A stretch of 64,000 bases of DNA from Gemmatimonas sp. (GTDB taxonomy: Bacteria; Gemmatimonadota; Gemmatimonadetes; Gemmatimonadales; Gemmatimonadaceae): positions 62,001 through 126,000 of the forward strand of contig PNKL01000001.1 of assembly GCA_013822425.1 (NCBI GenBank), read 5' to 3'. Shown one piece after another: positions 4,102 to 39,891 of this stretch; within the stretch, counting starts at the first letter, position 1; every line of letters starts with the position of its first letter. The notes under the pieces are model-generated. The model saw nothing but the letters and a program-made list of their open reading frames with translations. It searched no databases and was not told where the DNA came from. The position numbers and the translations under genes were made by a program.

Positions 4102-6147
4102 CTAGCCCGTTGGCGTGAGCCGTCGCCCCGCGCCTGATCTCCTTCCCTCCGCCGGCTGCACCGCCTCAAACACCTTCGCCTCCATGAACGTCGTCAGCAG
4201 CGCCGGGTCCACGTGCCCGTGCTTCGCCTCGTCGTGCAGGATGTCCAGCGCGCGCTCGGCGGTGACCGCGCGCTTGTACGGGCGGTCGGTGGCCGTCAGC
4301 GCGTCGTAGATGTCGCTGATGGTCATCATGCGCGTCTGCACGGGAATGGCGGCGGCGTTCACGCCGCGCGGGTAGCCCGAGCCGTCGAGCTTCTCGTGGT
4401 GGCCCCAGGCGATCAGCGGGATCCCCTTCAGCTCGCGCGTCCACGGGATCTGCTCGAGGAAGCGGTACGTGTGCGTCACGTGGCTCTCGATCTCGCGCCG
4501 CTCGCGCTCGTCGAGGTTGCCGCGGTTGATCATCAGGTAGCGCAGCTCGTCGTCGCTCAGCAGGGGCTTTTCCGTGCCGTCGAAGTCCACGAAGAGGCGC
4601 TCGTTGATCTCGCTCAGCGCCTCGAAGCTCCCTTCCGGCAGGATCGTCGGCTCGTTGGCCCGCACGATGGCGTCGAGGAAGCGCTGCAGCTGGTTGCGCG
4701 ACTCGTCGCGCGCGCGGTCCAGCCGCTGGAGCGCCTCCTCGTAGTTGGTGCGCCCGTGTTCCCACAGGTACTGTGCGCGCTCGCGCTCGTACTGCAGGTC
4801 GGCGCGCTGCAGCAGGAACTGGAAGCGGTGCCGGATGATGGCGAGGTCGGGGGCGTACAGCTTCTTCTGCTTCACGAGCACCTGCTCGCGAACGCCCACC
4901 TTGCCGAAATCGTGCAGCAGCGACGCGTAGCGCAGCTCGCGCATCTCCTCGCGCGAGAAGCGCACGCGGCCGTAGGGGCCGCTGTCCACGCGGTCCACCG
5001 CCGCGGCCAGCCCGGTGGTGAACGTGGCCACCCGCGACGAGTGCCCCGACGTGGTCGGGTCGCGGCTCTCGATGGCCGTCACCGACGCCATCACGAACCC
5101 CTCGAATAGCCGCTCGATGTCCTCGTACAGCCGCCCGTTCTCGATGGCCACGGCGGCCTGCGAGGCGAGCCCGCTGATGAGTGCCACCGCATGCGCGTCG
5201 AACGGCAGCACCTCGCGCTCCACGTCGGCCGCCGTCGCGAGCCGCACATCGGCGTTGCGCTTGCGGTTGATCAGCTGGAGCACGCCGACGATCTCGTCGC
5301 GATGCGTGCGCATCGGGATCGTCACCATGGATTTCGTGCGATACCCGAACTTCTCGTCGAACGACCGGTTGAACGTGAAGCGGTCGCCCGGCCCCAGGGA
5401 ATACGCGTCCTCGAAGTTGATTGCCTCGCCCGACACCGCGGCGGCGCCCGCGATGGACGACACAGTCAGCGGCACCGTGAACTCGCTGAAGGGCAGGTCG
5501 GGGAGCGTGAAGTTCTGCGAGAGCTTGAAGCGGAGCACCGCGTCCTCTCCCCGTTCCCCCTTCTCGACGAGATAGAGCGACCCGGCATCCGCCGCCGACA
5601 ACCGCCGCGCCTGCTCGAGGATCATGGTCAGCAGCGTCGGCAGGTCGCGCTCGGTGGAGAGCGCGACGCCAACGCGCGAGAGTTCGGCGATCTCGCCGGC
5701 GCGCGCGGCCGCTGCCGCGGCCTCACGCCGCGCCGCCACGAGCGCCGCGGCGTGGCGCACGGCGCCCTGGAGCGCCGTGCGCGCGAGCGCCGGCGCCGCG
5801 TCCTCCGCGATGAACCCGCAGAGCGCCTCCGCGGGCAGGGCGGGACCCGGCTCGACGGCGCCGGCCGCGCCCACCCCGAGAAACGCGACGCGCTCGCCCA
5901 GCGCGGCCACCGCGCTCGCCTCGGATGCCAGCGTGGCGTCGAGGAGCGCAACGACCGGCTGGTCGTCCGGCAGGTCTGCGGCCGACGGCAGTGCCCCGAC
6001 GCGGCGTACCGCGTACTCCGGGGCGCCGCCCAGGGACGGGAATGCCGCATAGGTGCGGCCGACGGAAGCGAGGATCAGCGGCGTCGTGGTCACGGCGGCA
6101 GGGAACGAGAACGCCGACGCCCCGGTACGCTGGGCGCCGGCGTTCAA
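4102..6147 (-). CDS. GAF/HD-GYP cyclic-di-GMP phosphodiesterase
   Basis: 681 residues from a TTG at 6147. A GTG at 6093 (VTTTPLILASVGRTY) is an equally possible start, and neither has a clear ribosome site. Residues ~20-130 look like a degenerate receiver-type domain (VVALLDATLASEASAVAALG). Residues ~165-335 are a GAF domain (LLTMILEQARRL...GSLYLVE). An HD-GYP domain follows: GHSSRV at ~369, the metal motif LLHDFGKVG at ~411-419, and the family signature HHEKLDGSGYPRG near residue 600. Known for the family: hydrolysis of cyclic-di-GMP. The HD and GYP motifs are intact, so activity is likely. The GAF ligand and the regulated process are unknown. It follows the CsgG-like gene on the same strand after 54 bp. 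Confidence 0.9.
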   Translation of the reverse strand: MNAGAQRTGASAFSFPAAVTTTPLILASVGRTYAAFPSLGGAPEYAVRRVGALPSAADLPDDQPVVALLDATLASEASAVAALGERVAFLGVGAAGAVEPGPALPAEALCGFIAEDAAPALARTALQGAVRHAAALVAARREAAAAAARAGEIAELSRVGVALSTERDLPTLLTMILEQARRLSAADAGSLYLVEKGERGEDAVLRFKLSQNFTLPDLPFSEFTVPLTVSSIAGAAAVSGEAINFEDAYSLGPGDRFTFNRSFDEKFGYRTKSMVTIPMRTHRDEIVGVLQLINRKRNADVRLATAADVEREVLPFDAHAVALISGLASQAAVAIENGRLYEDIERLFEGFVMASVTAIESRDPTTSGHSSRVATFTTGLAAAVDRVDSGPYGRVRFSREEMRELRYASLLHDFGKVGVREQVLVKQKKLYAPDLAIIRHRFQFLLQRADLQYERERAQYLWEHGRTNYEEALQRLDRARDESRNQLQRFLDAIVRANEPTILPEGSFEALSEINERLFVDFDGTEKPLLSDDELRYLMINRGNLDERERREIESHVTHTYRFLEQIPWTRELKGIPLIAWGHHEKLDGSGYPRGVNAAAIPVQTRMMTISDIYDALTATDRPYKRAVTAERALDILHDEAKHGHVDPALLTTFMEAKVFEAVQPAEGRRSGAGRRLTPTG

Positions 6148-12283: not shown

Positions 12284-13858
12284 GTGCCCCGCAACCGCCT
12301 CATCATCACACTGCTCGTGCTCGCCGTCGGCGCCATCGCCGGCGGCTGGTTGGTGCAGCGCGCGCTCAGCCGCTCGACGCACCCCACGGTGAGCGGCACG
12401 CGCCTGCTGGCGTCGGTGATGGAACGGGTGCGCGACAGCTACGTGGATTCGCTGACGGTGGATGAACTCTGGCGCCGCGCGGCCATCGGGCTGGTGGACG
12501 AACTCGGCGACCCGAACAGCACGTACCTGCCCCCCGACCGGCTGAAGCGGCTCACCGAAGCCACGTCGGGGCTGTACAGCGGCGTCGGCATCCAGGCCGA
12601 ACGTCGCGAGGGCTACGTGGTGGTGCTCGCGGTGCGCCCGAACTCGCCGGCGGAACAGGCGGGGGTGCAGGCGGGCGACCGACTGCTGGAGGCCGACGGC
12701 GTGGCCATGAAGGGATGGACGATGGAAGAGGCGCGCCACGCGATGCGCGGTGCGCCGGGCACGCGCCTGCAGCTCGTGGTGGAGCGCGGCACGGCGCGCC
12801 TCCCATTCAACCTCGAGCGTGGCCCGATCCACGTGTCGTCCATCTCGCGCGCGTTCGTGCTCGACGGCGGCGTGGGCTACCTGCACCTCTCCACCTTCAG
12901 CGATTCGGCCCGCGAGGAGCTGACGCGGGCGGTGGACTCGCTGGGGAGAGCGGGCGCGCGTTCGCTCATCCTCGACTTGCGGAACAATCCCGGCGGGCTG
13001 CTCAACCAGGGCGTCGCGATCGCCGACCTCTTCCTCGACAAGGGACAGGAGATCGTGGAGGTGCGGTCACGCGGACCGCAGCGCCAGACGGTGTACGTGG
13101 ACAGCGCGGAGCAGCGGTGGCCGCGGCTGCCGGTGGCGGTGGTGGTCAACTCCGGCACTGCGAGTGCCGCGGAAATCGTGGCCGGCGCGTTGCAGGACCA
13201 TGACCGCGCCCTGCTGCTGGGGCGCACGTCCTACGGCAAGGGCAGCGCGCAGAACGTCTTCACGCTCGAGGGCGGCGGCGGCCTCAAGCTGACCACGGCC
13301 CGCTGGTTCACGCCCTCCGGGCGCAGCATCAGCCACGTCGCAGGCAGCGACGACAGCGCGCCGCGGCAGATCACGAACCGGCCGGAGCGGCCGGTGTTCA
13401 AGACCGACGCCGGACGCAAGGTGTTCGGCGGCGGCGGCATCTCGCCCGACCTGCTGGCGGGCGACTCGGTGCCGGCCCCTGCGGAGCGGGCGTTCCTCCT
13501 GGCGCTGGGCGCGTCGGCGCCGCGATTCCGGGAGGCCATGAAAGACTTCGCCGCCGCGGAAGTGCGACGCGGTGCGGTGCGCGACACCGCCTTCGTTGTG
13601 ACACCGGCGATGCGCGACGCCCTCTGGGCGGAAGCCACGCGCCGCGGCGTGGACACACCGCGCTCGCTGTATGACGACGCCAGCCTGCTGGTGGACCGCC
13701 AGCTCGGCAACGAGCTCGCGCGGCAGGCGTTTGGACTCCCCTTTGCCGGGCGCCGCAGCGCGCGGAACGATCGCGTCCTGCAGCGGGCGGCTGAGCTCTT
13801 GCGACGGGTGACGGAGCCGAAGGAGTTGCTGGCGGTAGTGGACACGGTGACCAAGTGA
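12284..13858 (+). CDS. S41-family C-terminal processing peptidase
   Basis: 524 residues from GTG 12284 (AGGAG just upstream; the frame is open further 5' but lacks family features). The N-terminal membrane anchor is NRLIITLLVLAVGAIAGGWL. A PDZ domain follows (GLYSGVGIQAERREGYVVVLAVRPNSPAEQAGVQAGDRLLEADG). The tail-specific protease core has SLILDLRNNPGGLLNQGVAIADLFL, the catalytic Ser in VVNSGTASAAEIVAGALQDH and the catalytic Lys in GRTSYGKGSAQNVF. The ~150-residue C-terminal extension is less conserved. Expected role: periplasmic processing or degradation of envelope proteins. Confidence 0.9.
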   Translation: MPRNRLIITLLVLAVGAIAGGWLVQRALSRSTHPTVSGTRLLASVMERVRDSYVDSLTVDELWRRAAIGLVDELGDPNSTYLPPDRLKRLTEATSGLYSGVGIQAERREGYVVVLAVRPNSPAEQAGVQAGDRLLEADGVAMKGWTMEEARHAMRGAPGTRLQLVVERGTARLPFNLERGPIHVSSISRAFVLDGGVGYLHLSTFSDSAREELTRAVDSLGRAGARSLILDLRNNPGGLLNQGVAIADLFLDKGQEIVEVRSRGPQRQTVYVDSAEQRWPRLPVAVVVNSGTASAAEIVAGALQDHDRALLLGRTSYGKGSAQNVFTLEGGGGLKLTTARWFTPSGRSISHVAGSDDSAPRQITNRPERPVFKTDAGRKVFGGGGISPDLLAGDSVPAPAERAFLLALGASAPRFREAMKDFAAAEVRRGAVRDTAFVVTPAMRDALWAEATRRGVDTPRSLYDDASLLVDRQLGNELARQAFGLPFAGRRSARNDRVLQRAAELLRRVTEPKELLAVVDTVTK

Positions 13859-32005: not shown

Positions 32006-32305
32006 ATGACGTCCCCTGCTTCCCTCGACGACGTGATTGTCGTCTCCACCGACCAGGTGTCGGCCGATCTCTCGGGCGAGACCATCATTCTTGGCATGCG
32101 CGAGGGGGCGTACTTCGGGGTCAGCTCCGCCGGCTCGCGCATCTGGTCGCTGCTGCAACAGCCCCGCCGACTGGGCGACGTGGTATCCATCCTCACGTCG
32201 GAGTACGAGGTGGACGCCCGGCAGTGCGCGACCGACGTGCTGGCGTTCGTTGACGACCTGCTCTCCCGTGGCCTCGTGAGCCGTGACGGGCCGTCGGCTG
32301 GCTAG
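32006..32305 (+). CDS. PqqD-family RiPP recognition protein (lasso B1)
   Basis: 99 residues from ATG 32006 (MTSPASLDDVIVVSTDQVSADLSGETIILGMREGAYFGVSSAGSRIWSLLQQPRRLGDVVSILTSEYEVDARQCATDVLAFVDDLLSRGLV). The strand pattern V-S-A-D-L-S-G-E-T-I-I-L, then G-x-Y-F-G-x-x-x-x-G-S-R-I-W, is that of the PqqD/RRE fold that binds RiPP leader peptides. It starts a plus-strand run whose next gene, the B2 peptidase, overlaps it by 23 bp. Expected role: present the leader of the precursor at 34020 to the B2 protease and the cyclase. Confidence 0.9.
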   Translation: MTSPASLDDVIVVSTDQVSADLSGETIILGMREGAYFGVSSAGSRIWSLLQQPRRLGDVVSILTSEYEVDARQCATDVLAFVDDLLSRGLVSRDGPSAG

Positions 32306-32771
32306 TTTCCTGCGGCTGCCGGTGTCGGAGCGCCGTCTTGCCACACGGGCCCTTGCCACGCTGGCCGCGGTGCGGCTCGCGCTTTTCCTGATGCCATTTC
32401 GTCGCGTGCGAGCGGGAGTGGACCGCTGGTCAGGCGGCGGTGTGACCCCGACGCCCGACGTCGCCACGGCCAAGGCCGTGAAGCGCGCCGTCGAGCGTGC
32501 CGCGCGTACCCTGCCGGGGAGTGCCTGCCTCGCGCTGGCGCTGACGGCGGAGGTCCTGCTGCGTCGCGCCGGCCAATCAGTGGAGGTGTTGATCGGCGTC
32601 GCTCCGGGCGCGGCGGCGGCGGACAATGGGACCGCGAGCCCTGCGCCCAGCGCACTCGACGCCCACGCGTGGGTGCGCTGTGCCGGCGTGGTGGTGACGG
32701 GCGAACGGGCGGACCTCGCGGCGTATCGCACGCTCGCGGTGTTCGGCGCCGATCGGCCCGCGGGGTCGTAG
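32283..32771 (+). CDS. Transglutaminase-like leader peptidase (lasso B2)
   Basis: 162 residues from GTG 32283. The C-terminal cysteine-protease-like core holds Cys82 in the run GSACLALALTAEVLLRRAG and His128 in LDAHAWVRCAGVVVTGE. This is the Cys-His pattern of the lasso peptide biosynthesis B2 (transglutaminase-like) family; the acidic third residue is not certain. The N-terminal segment (ATRALATLAAVRLALFLMPFR) is the usual hydrophobic helix. It should cut the precursor after the leader, two residues beyond the conserved Thr. Translation overlaps B1 and ends one base before the methyltransferase start. Confidence 0.88.
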   Translation: MTGRRLASFLRLPVSERRLATRALATLAAVRLALFLMPFRRVRAGVDRWSGGGVTPTPDVATAKAVKRAVERAARTLPGSACLALALTAEVLLRRAGQSVEVLIGVAPGAAAADNGTASPAPSALDAHAWVRCAGVVVTGERADLAAYRTLAVFGADRPAGS

Positions 32772-32772
32772 C

Positions 32773-33936
32773 GTGACGTACTCGCTTGAAGACTACGTGG
32801 CGATGATCGCCGACCCGCACCGCACGGAGCCGTACGTGCGGGCGATGCGGCGCCTGGTGGCGCCCGACTCCGTCGTCCTCGACCTCGGCGCCGGCTTCGG
32901 CTACTTCGCGGTACTCGCGGCGACGCTGGGCGCACGGCACGTGTACGCTATCGAGACCAACGACGCCGTCGCGCTGGGTCCGGCGCTGGCACGCGCCAAC
33001 GGCGTGGCCGACCGCATCACGTTCTTCCACGGCGATTCCCGGCGGGTGGAGCTTCCGGAGCGCGCGACCGTCCTCGTGGAGGACGTTCGCGGCGTCCTGC
33101 CACTGCACGGGGCGCGGTTCCAGTTGCTGGCCGACGCGCGCGAGCGGCTGCTGACGCCGGATGCACAGCACGTGGCGCTGCGCGATCATTTGTGGGCCGC
33201 CCCGGCCAGGCATCCGGCCAAGGCAAGGCGAGGGCTCCAGGTCGTCGGCTCCGTGCTGCACGGCGTGGACCTGGGCGCGGTGCAGCCGCGCCTCGCGGAC
33301 GGCTGGACGCGTATATCGCCTCGCGCCGACGATTTGATTGGGCCCGAACGCCAGCTCGGCACGCTCGAATTGGCTGCGCTTGTGGATTCCCGCTTCGAGG
33401 GAACAGCGTCCTGGACGCTGCCGCACGACCTTGCGGTTGACGGCTTCGCTGTCTGGTTCGAATCGGAGCTCTGGGGCGGCGAGCGTTTCACTGCGAAGCC
33501 CGGACTCGAGCAGACCGTGCACGGCTGCCTCTACCTGCCGCTTCGGGCGCCGCTGCAGGTGCGGGCGGGGCGCGAGTTCGGACTCCGTTTCTGCGGGATT
33601 CCGGTTGACTCGGACTACACGTGGGCGTGGGAGTGCCAGTTTCGCGACGCCAGTGGCGGCCTGGTCGCGCTTCCGCGGCAGTCCACGGTCTCGACCCTGG
33701 TGCGCACGGCGGCGCGGCTGAGGGCCATGTCGGAGGAGCACCGCCCAACGCTCGGGCTCGAGGGCCGGCGCTGGAAGGCCGCCCTTTCGCTCGCGGAATC
33801 GGGGCTCTCGTCGGGGGAGATCGCGGCCGCGCTTTCGGGGGAGACTTCCAATCGCTTTCGGACGCCGCGCGAGGCGTTCGACTGGCTACAACGTGTGGTT
33901 GCAGCGCTCGAATCGAGTGAGGCTGTCAGGCTTTAG
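32773..33936 (+). CDS. PRMT-like SAM methyltransferase in the lasso cluster
   Basis: 387 residues from GTG 32773. The SAM site is clear: motif I VLDLGAGFGYFAVLAATLGA, acidic post-I IETND, motif II in ERATVLVEDVRGVLPLHG. The order and the acidic loop resemble protein-arginine-methyltransferase-like enzymes. The C-terminal ~200 residues include a beta-barrel-like part (FTAKPGLEQTVHGCLYLPLRAPLQVRAGREFGLRFCG) and an Arg-rich helical end. It lies between B2 and the precursor, so it is likely a tailoring enzyme of the peptide. Methyltransferase: well supported. Arginine target: inference. It ends 83 bp before the precursor. Confidence 0.75.
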   Translation: MTYSLEDYVAMIADPHRTEPYVRAMRRLVAPDSVVLDLGAGFGYFAVLAATLGARHVYAIETNDAVALGPALARANGVADRITFFHGDSRRVELPERATVLVEDVRGVLPLHGARFQLLADARERLLTPDAQHVALRDHLWAAPARHPAKARRGLQVVGSVLHGVDLGAVQPRLADGWTRISPRADDLIGPERQLGTLELAALVDSRFEGTASWTLPHDLAVDGFAVWFESELWGGERFTAKPGLEQTVHGCLYLPLRAPLQVRAGREFGLRFCGIPVDSDYTWAWECQFRDASGGLVALPRQSTVSTLVRTAARLRAMSEEHRPTLGLEGRRWKAALSLAESGLSSGEIAAALSGETSNRFRTPREAFDWLQRVVAALESSEAVRL

Positions 33937-34019: not shown

Positions 34020-34193
34020 ATGGATCGTCCCGTGCAAGCACCCTCGAGTGGTGTCGCCACTCCGTCGACCCGGGGCCGTGCGCCGTGGTCGGCTCCGCGC
34101 TTGCTGCGCATGGGCTCGGTGGCCGCACTGACCAGCAAGGTTGACAACGCGGGCAAGAACGACGGCGGTGCCTTTCCGAAGCGCCGTACCTGA
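34020..34193 (+). CDS. Lasso-type RiPP precursor peptide
   Basis: 57 residues from ATG 34020 (GAGG ten bases upstream). It contains the lasso leader signature W-x-x-P-x-L-x-x-x-G-x-x-x-x-L-T as WSAPRLLRMGSVAALT (residues 23-38), with Trp in place of the usual Tyr. The invariant Thr38 sits at leader position -2, so the predicted cut is after Ser39 and the core is KVDNAGKNDGGAFPKRRT. Asp48 is core residue 9, allowing a 9-residue macrolactam ring with the Lys1 amine; the tail GGAFPKRRT has bulky Phe, Lys and Arg that could act as plugs. A core starting with Lys is unusual. It is flanked by B1, B2, cyclase, kinase and exporter genes. The leader match is seen; ring and cut site are predictions. 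Confidence 0.85.
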   Translation: MDRPVQAPSSGVATPSTRGRAPWSAPRLLRMGSVAALTSKVDNAGKNDGGAFPKRRT

Positions 34194-36991: not shown

Positions 36992-38143
36992 ATGACAACG
37001 CGCGTCTCCCCCGAGTTGCAGTTCGTGCTGGCCGCCGTGCGCCGTGACGCGGCGGCCGCCGAGGCGCGCGTGCGCGCGGCCGGTGCGGTGTCCGACTGGG
37101 ACGCCGTGGTGTCGCTCGCCGAACGACGCGAAGCGGAGTGGTGGGTGTGGCGCGCACTCCCCGCCGCGGGCGTGCCCGAGGCCGCGCGCGATCAACTCGG
37201 CGCGGCCGTGCGCGCGCTGGCGCGGCAGTCGCTGGCGGGCGTGCGCGAACTGCTGGCGCTCGTGCGTGCGCTCGAGGACGCCGGGGTTACGGTGGTGGCG
37301 TACAAGGGACCCGCGCTGGCCGCCGACGTGCACGGCGACGTCGGCGCGCGGAGATTCACGGACCTCGACCTGCTGGTGTCGGAGCGCGACCGTGCGCGGG
37401 CGCGCGCGGCGCTGCGGGCCATCGGGTACTCGTCGCCCGGCGGTTACAGCGAGCGCGAGGAGCGGTTTTTCTCGGCGTGGGAAGGCGTGCTGCATTTCTC
37501 GGCCGAGCACGCCTTGCTCCCCGTCGAGCTGCACTGGAGGGTCCAGGCGCCGCGTTACGGCGCGCCGCAGGATCCTGCGTCCATCCTGGAATCGGCGCGG
37601 CGCTGCGACCTTGGCGCTGGATCGGTGCTCGTGCCGGCGATGGAAACGCAAGCGGTGCTGCTCGCGCTGCACGGCGTCAAGCACGCATGGACGAGCATGC
37701 TGTGGGTCACGGACTTCGCGCGCGCCGTGGATCGCGACGGGTTCGACTGGGTGCGATTCGAGGCGGAGACGGCGCGGTGGGGCGTGCGGCGCGCCGTGCA
37801 TGACGCGCTGCTGGTGGCGCACGACCTGTTGTCCCTCGCGGTGCCCGACCACTGGCTGGCGCGCGCCCGCGCCGACGCCGCGGCCGCGCGACTGGCCGCG
37901 GACGCCGTGCGCGGCCTGGTGAGCGATGCCGATTCACCCAACGCGGGCCGCGAGTCCACGGCGCGCTACGACCTGCAGTGGCTGGGAAGCACCAGGGCGC
38001 GGCTCCGCTACCTCGCCTTGGCGGCGGCTCTGCCGACGCCCCAGGAACGCGCGGCGGTGCGGCTCCCGGACGTGCTGCTGCCGCTGGCCTATCTCGTGCG
38101 CGCGTGGCGCCTGTTGCGGCATGTGCTGGCGAGGAACGCGTGA
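36992..38143 (+). CDS. Family-5 nucleotidyltransferase-like protein
   Basis: 383 residues from ATG 36992 with a strong ribosome site (GGAGG six bases upstream). VVAYKGPALAADVHGDVGARRFTDLDLLV (residues ~101-129) holds the KGPAL and D-x-D (Asp124/Asp126) elements of the NTP_transf_5 (PF14907) nucleotidyltransferases. VELHWRV and ALHGVKHAWTSMLWVTDFARAV are further family text. Such proteins accompany HprK-type kinases in several lasso clusters and may extend the phosphate on the peptide. Reaction here unproven. The stop overlaps the exporter start (GTGA). Confidence 0.8.
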   Translation: MTTRVSPELQFVLAAVRRDAAAAEARVRAAGAVSDWDAVVSLAERREAEWWVWRALPAAGVPEAARDQLGAAVRALARQSLAGVRELLALVRALEDAGVTVVAYKGPALAADVHGDVGARRFTDLDLLVSERDRARARAALRAIGYSSPGGYSEREERFFSAWEGVLHFSAEHALLPVELHWRVQAPRYGAPQDPASILESARRCDLGAGSVLVPAMETQAVLLALHGVKHAWTSMLWVTDFARAVDRDGFDWVRFEAETARWGVRRAVHDALLVAHDLLSLAVPDHWLARARADAAAARLAADAVRGLVSDADSPNAGRESTARYDLQWLGSTRARLRYLALAAALPTPQERAAVRLPDVLLPLAYLVRAWRLLRHVLARNA

Positions 38144-39891
38144 CTGCGCCATGGCGTGCGCTGGCCCGGGGCCTGTGGCGGGAGCATCGCGGGGCGATGC
38201 TCGTGGTCGGCACGGCCACGGCGGCGCTCATGCTCACCGAGGGGGTGGGGCTGCTGCTCGCGGTGCCCATGCTGCGGCTGGTTGGCGTGGCGCTCGGCGC
38301 CGGTGCCTCGGATCGCGTTGCCGACGCGCTGGAGGCGGCGTTGCGCGCCCTGGGCGTGACGCCCACCCTTGCCGGCGTGCTGCTCGCGGTGGTCGCCGTG
38401 GTGACGGCGCGCGCGGCGCTGCAGCTGCTGCTGACGAGCGCGCAGGCGCGGCTTGAAGCGGAGGTCGTGGGGCGGCTGCGCCAGCGGCTCTTCGCCGCCG
38501 TGGTGCAACTGCCGTGGGCGCGCTTCTCGGGCGAGCGGCCGGCGGCGCTTGCGCATGCACTCGGCCCGCAGGTGGACGACGTGCACGCGGCGCTGCTGAT
38601 GCTGCTCGACGCGGCGTCGCTGGCGGCGGCAGTCGCGGCGGCGGCCACGGTGGCCGTCGTTGTGTCGCCGGTCCTGACGGCCGTGGTCGCGCTGGCTGGC
38701 GTGCTGCTGGTGCTCGCGGCGCGCGCGCTGCGCGCGCCGGGACGTGCCGAGGGCGAGCGGCTGCTCGAGGCGGCCACGACCCTGTTCGCGCACGTCAGCG
38801 AGCTGCTGGGCGCGATGAAGATGATCCACGCGCATGGCGCCGAGTCGCGCGCGGTGGGCACCGTCGCGGCCGACACGCGCGCCTGGTCGGCCCTGACGCT
38901 GCACTACGCGCGCTCGCGCGCGGCGACGAGTTTCGCGCTCGCGGTGCTTGGCGTCGCGATGCTGGCCGCGCTCATCTGGGGGTCGGTGGTGCCGTTCGGC
39001 ATTGCGCCGGGGACGCTGCTGCTGCTCCTGCTGGTCTACGCGCGAATCGTCCCACGCCTCTCGGAACTGCACGTGCTGTGGAGCCGCATCAGCCAGGCGC
39101 TGGCGTCGTTCGATGCGATCTCCGGCTTGCTCGCCCGGTGCGAGTCGGCGCGCGCCACGGCGGACGACGCACGGTCGGGGTTCGCGTTGACGGACGGCGG
39201 CGCGGCCGGGCGCGAGCGGAACGCATACGCCGCGGGGGTGACGCCCGTCGGGAGCGGACCGGGGCTCGAACTGCGCAACGTCACCGTCCGCTACCCGACG
39301 GGCGAGCGGCCCGTGTTGTCGAGGTACACGGCGTACTTCCCCGGCGGCCTGCTCACCGCGGTGGTCGGCCCGTCCGGCGCCGGCAAGACGACGCTTGGCG
39401 ACGTGCTGCTCGGCCTGCTCGTGCCCGAGGCGGGCGAGGTGCTGGTGGATGGCGTTCCGCTCGCCTCCATTCCGCGCGACGCCTGGCGTTCCCGGCTCGG
39501 CTACCTCGCGCAGGAGCCGATGCTCGTTCACGGCACGATACGCGAGAACCTGCTGTTCGCGCGGCCTTCAGCGACGGACGCGCAGCTCACCGCCGCGCTC
39601 GCCGCCGCGGCGTGCGACTTCGTTGCGCGACTTCCGCAGCGCATCGACGCGCCGGTGGGCGACCGCGGCGTCCTGCTCAGCGGCGGAGAGCGGCAGCGAA
39701 TCGCGCTCGCCCGGGCGCTGCTGCGCGAGCCGCAGCTGCTGGTGCTCGACGAGGCGACGAGCGCGCTCGATGCCGAGACGGAATGGCGGATCCTGCAGAC
39801 GGTGCGCGCCCTGAGAGGGCGCTGCACGGTGGTGTTCTGCTCGCACCGGGAGGCGGTGCGGGCGGAGGCGGATCAGGTGATAGAACTCTGA
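38140..39891 (+). CDS. ABC-type RiPP exporter (membrane plus ATPase)
   Basis: 583 residues from GTG 38140. An N-terminal transmembrane domain of about six helices (residues ~15-330; for example GAMLVVGTATAALMLTEGVGLLLAVPMLRLVG and SLAAAVAAAATVAVVVSPVLTAVVALAGVLLVLAARAL) is fused to the ATPase. The ATPase has Walker A VVGPSGAGKTTLGD (410-417), the signature LSGGERQRIALARALL (from ~513) and Walker B LLVLDEATSALD (~535). No peptidase-C39 domain, so it exports already cut peptide. Last gene of the cluster, giving export and self-protection. No TonB receptor or lasso isopeptidase is nearby. Confidence 0.9.
   Translation: MTAPWRALARGLWREHRGAMLVVGTATAALMLTEGVGLLLAVPMLRLVGVALGAGASDRVADALEAALRALGVTPTLAGVLLAVVAVVTARAALQLLLTSAQARLEAEVVGRLRQRLFAAVVQLPWARFSGERPAALAHALGPQVDDVHAALLMLLDAASLAAAVAAAATVAVVVSPVLTAVVALAGVLLVLAARALRAPGRAEGERLLEAATTLFAHVSELLGAMKMIHAHGAESRAVGTVAADTRAWSALTLHYARSRAATSFALAVLGVAMLAALIWGSVVPFGIAPGTLLLLLLVYARIVPRLSELHVLWSRISQALASFDAISGLLARCESARATADDARSGFALTDGGAAGRERNAYAAGVTPVGSGPGLELRNVTVRYPTGERPVLSRYTAYFPGGLLTAVVGPSGAGKTTLGDVLLGLLVPEAGEVLVDGVPLASIPRDAWRSRLGYLAQEPMLVHGTIRENLLFARPSATDAQLTAALAAAACDFVARLPQRIDAPVGDRGVLLSGGERQRIALARALLREPQLLVLDEATSALDAETEWRILQTVRALRGRCTVVFCSHREAVRAEADQVIEL

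Follow-up and report, generated by a model that had tools for sequence, protein, structure and literature searches.

Described lasso systems and the Gemmatimonas locus

The described systems closest to the locus analysed here are the phosphorylated lasso peptides, including paeninodin with its Thermobacillus and Sphingobium relatives and bsf of Bradymonas. A split B1/B2 pair, a cyclase C and an HprK-like kinase are common to these systems and to our locus; the His, P-loop Lys and Asp-Asp (H-K-D-D) motif of lasso kinases has been described (PMC9266682, PMC10368454). Paeninodin-type tails end in a hydroxyl residue, as does the core described here. Our locus differs from this group in having Thr where Ser is reported, Lys1 where Ala1 or Gly1 is found, and an extra gene for a PRMT-fold methyltransferase, and it is also unlike bsf, in which the phosphate is on Ser3 and position -2 is Ile. 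Pseudomycoidin (PMC8498205) brings a kinase and a nucleotidyltransferase together in one lasso cluster, as in our locus, whereas the phylum and the core are different and the PRMT-fold gene belongs to ours. Metanodin (PMC12670498, October 2025) likewise combines the Thr(-2) rule with a previously unobserved first residue, reported as the first Asn1, but it is gammaproteobacterial, of classical ABC architecture and experimentally supported, whereas our peptide is predicted from genes. Lariocidin/triculamin (PMC11451635) is, as a lead only, similar in its 18 residues, strong positive charge, and conserved ring Asp with neighbouring Gly residues; its eight-residue Ser1-Asp8 ring and its cluster without a named kinase or nucleotidyltransferase are unlike ours. 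Reviews place the ring acceptor at core position 7 to 9 and deem larger rings too loose (PMC9266682, PMC12427821), and experimentally observed first residues include Gly, Cys, Ser and Ala (PMC12670498).

The window, a 64,000-nucleotide stretch of Gemmatimonas DNA, contains a short gene at 34020-34193 that, judged by its genes and their conservation, is an authentic conserved lasso precursor with ordinary machinery and an ordinary leader; the first core residue, the Thr-ended tail and the PRMT-fold neighbour are unusual. Lasso peptides that begin with Leu or Trp are also known, and we know of none that begins with Lys. Our literature search, which covered papers on studied lasso peptides, found no report of Lys1 in any of these peptides, and a search on lasso peptides in Gemmatimonadetes returned nothing on this Gemmatimonas precursor family. 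The gene product is probably processed to a cationic lasso peptide with a Lys1-Asp9 ring, a member of a family of Gemmatimonas and its relatives. This model draws on genes, synteny, conservation, leader register and the association of tail and kinase, and what it predicts is the cut, the ring and its threading, the phosphorylation and methylation, and the export and activity of the product. First residue and ring size determine genome-mining targets and the lasso peptides that can be engineered. Both limits can be tested directly in this natural family, whose charged residue 1 is conserved, and in its relatives, which probe the 7-9 rule.

A lasso operon with an additional methyltransferase gene

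The genes formed a colinear operon in the order B1, B2, methyltransferase, precursor A, C, kinase, nucleotidyltransferase and ABC exporter, with short gaps and overlapping starts (Table 1); for the exporter, the GTG at 38140 is one among several possible starts. The earlier note had listed B1, B2, C, kinase, nucleotidyltransferase and exporter genes, all of which were recovered with Pfam and NCBIfam models, and had missed the methyltransferase gene.

Table 1. Features of the lasso locus, in positions of the window
Feature	Positions	Strand	Remarks
B1, PqqD-like leader-binding (RRE) protein, 99 aa	32006..32305	+	PF05402 E=2.3e-17
B2, lasso leader peptidase, transglutaminase fold	32283..32771	+	NF033537 lasso_biosyn_B2, 72 bits > cut-off 33
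PRMT-fold methyltransferase, C-terminal helical domain	32773..33936	+	between B2 and precursor; phmmer vs PDB: PRMT6, E=5e-16
Lasso precursor A	34020..34193	+	ATG, 57 aa MDRPVQAPSSGVATPSTRGRAPWSAPRLLRMGSVAALTSKVDNAGKNDGGAFPKRRT; leader 1-39, predicted cut after Ser39, predicted core 40-57 KVDNAGKNDGGAFPKRRT
Leader recognition stretch WSAPRLLRMGSVAALTS	34086..34136	+	W-17, P-14, L-12, G-8, T-2; homologous precursors in same register
Core codons	34137..34190	+	Lys1 34137-34139, Asp9 34161-34163 (predicted ring acceptor), Thr18 34188-34190 (predicted phosphate acceptor)
C, lasso macrolactam cyclase (asparagine synthetase-like), 587 aa	34234..35997	+	PF00733 E=3.7e-26, GATase_7
HprK-like lasso kinase, 318 aa	35990..36946	+	GTG start overlaps C end; TIGR04352 E=1.6e-9
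Nucleotidyltransferase-fold protein	36992..38143	+	PF14907 E=1.7e-47
ABC exporter, fused membrane and ATPase domains	38140..39891	+	PF00664 and PF00005

The short precursor was thus adjoined by the set that marks a lasso cluster genetically, namely B1 (RRE), B2 (cysteine protease) and C (Asn-synthetase-like cyclase). B2 exceeded its curated cut-off; B1 (NF033536 lasso_PqqD_Bac, E=3.3e-20, 72 bits where the cut-off is 80) and C (NF033535, E=3.2e-47) were clear matches below the curated NCBIfam cut-offs of the lasso models, which counts against the lasso reading. B1 was 49-68% identical to its genus homologues, and the Cys and His of the B2 catalytic motifs were conserved in 18/18 aligned rows. 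Of the nine other cyclases of the genus, eight were 47-63% identical to C and one, that of cluster L071, was 35% identical. When public genomes were scanned with the cyclase alignment, the matches were mainly distant relatives, with one record of the genus (Gemmatimonas sp. GL140_4).

Leader register and position of the cut

Precursors in YxxPxL register at -17 to -12, and Thr(-2) in previously known lasso precursors, were described in PMC10368454. When the genus precursors were cut before Lys, positions -17, -14, -12, -8 and -2 were occupied by an aromatic residue, Pro, Leu, Gly and Thr, respectively, so that the leader carried both W/YxxPxL at -17 to -12 and Thr(-2). The same Thr(-2) rule, applied to other lasso clusters of the phylum, gave Gly1 or Ala1 with Asp or Glu at position 8 or 9; kinase-less clusters elsewhere in the phylum mostly gave Gly1, again with Asp or Glu at 8 or 9. 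Because the Thr(-2) rule and the W/YxxPxL register agree, and because the rule also fits these other clusters, Lys is assigned to residue 1. The 18-residue, Lys-first core that had been proposed from the sequence is therefore upheld, and the alternative offered with it, a cut site off the Thr(-2) rule, is disfavoured since both signals give Lys1. The leader and cut site, as read here, follow the rule, and Lys1 is a novelty at the level of a residue within lasso peptides.

The main rival for Lys1 in the window precursor is a cut one residue later, which would place Thr at -3 and give the core VDNAGKNDGGAFPKRRT with an eight-residue Val1-Asp8 ring (computed mass of this 17-residue form, 1783.908). 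This reading is consistent with an invariant Val at position 2 in 15 genus cores, and with the sister clade described below, where it would turn most cores, whose only acid is at 10, into nine-residue rings and the genus cores into eight-residue rings. It would, however, depart both from the Thr(-2) rule and from the YxxPxL spacing (-17 to -12) of previously characterised precursors (PMC10368454). In several relatives the residue after Tx was Ala or Ser, which are ordinary starts, whereas a core starting with Val or Ile would be unusual, and cores with an acid at 11 (L081, L259) would still lie outside the accepted range. We consider the later cut unlikely, though it fares best among the alternatives to a Lys1-Asp9 lasso peptide.

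In a tree of 39 cyclases, the window cyclase and 18 others formed one fully supported clade with two groups. Under the Thr(-2) register, the only core acid in the group without the window was at position 10 (twice in L080, once each in L201, L210 and L081, and in L259 as judged from precursor similarity) or 11 (L081, L259). In three clusters of genus g31 (L260, L261, L262), a D9 core near B1 and the methyltransferase was found together with a D10 core between the kinase and the nucleotidyltransferase. The sister-group cores with an acid at 10 or 11 are, by sequence, candidates for rings of more than nine residues, and either they form 10-11-residue rings or they are cut one residue later. The position of these acids argues against the Lys1 reading, since the later cut (Val1 and Asp8 in the window) would put most cores within 7-9. 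Tentatively, the cyclases of this Gemmatimonadaceae clade may accept Lys, Arg, Ala, Ser, Thr and Asn as the first residue and close 9- and 10-residue rings and perhaps 11-residue ones. If so, the window peptide would be the Lys1 nine-residue form, and the peptides of the sister clade and of L260-L262 would be the first lasso rings larger than nine.

The sister-group precursors were located at L080 10224-10636, L081 6150-6578, L201 9229-9465, L210 5408-5674 and L259 7353-7757 (for example, SVGMKGTTSDGGGAPGMSKTS). The D9 and D10 precursors of genus g31 were located at 12400-12675 and 7554-8174 in L260, 3449-3760 and 7691-7897 in L261, and 4984-5439 and 9249-9476 in L262, with RNSNRGRRDGLNNRRTG and RNLWAPGRQDGSNWFRRTG as examples of the D9 and D10 cores.

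Core conservation and ring closure

The window core was compared with 14 further cores from seven other genomes of the genus (L064-L070, one to three precursors per cluster). Asp9 and Val2 were present in 15/15 cores, and Asp3, Gly6, Gly10, Gly11, Arg17 and Thr18 each in 13/15. Residue 1 was Lys in 12, Ala in two and Arg in one. An acid was thus found within core positions 7-9, as Asp9, and its invariance agrees with the nine-member ring for which the earlier note considered Asp9 suitable. That note had also proposed a check of Lys1 and Asp9 in homologous clusters, where Asp9 proved universal and Lys1 predominant. Cores of another type were encoded by two further genus members (L071 and L072).

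A branched-cyclic, unthreaded macrolactam in place of a threaded lasso is improbable: bulky tail residues are few and the plug at position 13 varies (F, W or G), as that product would allow, but the full lasso machinery is encoded, and Arg and Lys close to the C-terminus could serve as plugs.

Ring closure through the epsilon-amine of Lys1 is less probable still. Lys1 in 12/15 cores would suit it; however, clusters L064, L065 and L066, each with a single cyclase, combine Lys1 cores with Ala1 or Arg1 siblings, which have no epsilon-amine, and characterised lasso cyclases work on the alpha-amine (PMC9266682). These siblings in one-cyclase clusters imply that the predicted Lys1-Asp9 ring closes through the alpha-amine. 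They also bear on the suggestion that a Lys start would define an unusual class: Lys1 is indeed unusual, but a separate class is not indicated, as Ala1 siblings share the family.

Two precursors in L070 (10879-11453; KVGTSKHRDSKNRRNRTF, KVGKSKHRDSKNFKNRTF) had Lys1 and Asp9 without the DGG/Gly6 pattern, in a cluster lacking the methyltransferase.

Conservation of the precursor gene

An AGAGG sequence was present about 10 bases 5' of the precursor ATG. A protein search of 179 family genomes detected homologues in Gemmatimonas (best E 2.6e-17), and neighbourhood comparison demonstrated homologous precursor ORFs at equivalent sites in clusters of the genus, within the same operon. When the gene was compared codon by codon with 12 homologues, pN/pS was 0.33-0.55, substitutions were mainly synonymous and third positions were most variable, a pattern indicating that the ORF is under purifying selection. 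Given the ORFs at equivalent sites and these pN/pS values, we regard it as a real gene, and the 57-codon lasso precursor that had been noticed from the sequence is borne out. That 34020-34193 is a chance ORF inside a lasso locus, as its shortness and the overlapping antisense ORFs might suggest, is scarcely credible against the genus homologues, their pN/pS and the lack of a better precursor candidate within the locus.

Proposed pathway

In the proposed pathway, B1 would bind the leader stretch WSAPRLLRMGSVAALTS, and B2 would cleave two residues past Thr(-2), before Lys1. Cyclase C would then activate the Asp9 side chain and join it to the Lys1 alpha-amine, giving a nine-residue ring, KVDNAGKND, with the tail GGAFPKRRT. 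The ABC protein would export the product. The predicted monoisotopic mass is 1912.003 for the core minus water and 1991.969 with one phosphate.

The PRMT-fold methyltransferase

Sequence and predicted fold both place the methyltransferase among PRMT-fold proteins. Its AlphaFold model (pLDDT 84) matched PRMT6 in Foldseek (E=9e-25), and the TM score by target reached 0.86 with a chain of a trypanosome PRMT1 complex. The full-length fold is common to this protein and eukaryotic PRMT1/PRMT6, whereas the double-E catalytic loop is not kept: the PRMT segment SEWMGxxLLHES aligned with VEDVRGVLPLHGAR, in which an invariant Asp104 takes the place of the first Glu and the second Glu is not conserved. 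Several neighbouring cores, moreover, are free of Arg. Of the 179 family genomes, 26 had the gene, nearly always as a single match; at the loci that were read, it usually lay next to a lasso precursor.

The enzyme probably methylates the peptide. Arginine methylation as its sure role was set aside in view of the altered double-E loop, of clusters L071, L080, L210 and L258, which have the gene and cores without Arg, and of Gemmatimonas genomes G123, G126 and G129, which have cores of the same or a related kind and gave no match to the methyltransferase. The C-terminal helices were also considered as a fused leader-binding domain, which a profile comparison with B1 did not support. A PRMT-fold enzyme in lasso clusters suggests a tailoring step, of which no description was found in the literature, and a search on lasso peptides and arginine methylation likewise found no such enzyme described.

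The kinase and the C-terminal threonine

The His (LALHASAV), the GxxGxGKS P-loop (GPSGAGKS) and the Asp-Asp (TDD) motifs of the window kinase were intact. Among clusters of the phylum, the three C-terminal core residues included Ser or Thr in 45/46 cores from kinase clusters and in 6/29 from kinase-less clusters (Fisher p = 8.5e-13, indicative only, as relatedness is uncorrected and some rows are possibly chance ORFs). The window core has no Ser, and the C-terminal Thr18 is its only hydroxyl residue; a C-terminal Ser is the paeninodin-type acceptor. Because tail Ser/Thr goes with the kinase, Thr18 is the sole hydroxyl and the kinase motifs are intact, phosphorylation of Thr18 by the kinase is predicted. 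Addition by a nucleotidyltransferase to the kinase-made phosphate was described for pseudomycoidin (PMC8498205), and by analogy the window nucleotidyltransferase may extend the Thr18 phosphate.

Precursors of a different lasso type, with Gly1, Glu8 and an ELINF/EFIN motif (GEHGRALELINFRPG), occurred in a further family of the class to which Gemmatimonas belongs (L184, L185, L186, L198); they were often in tandem, and their clusters were kinase-less.
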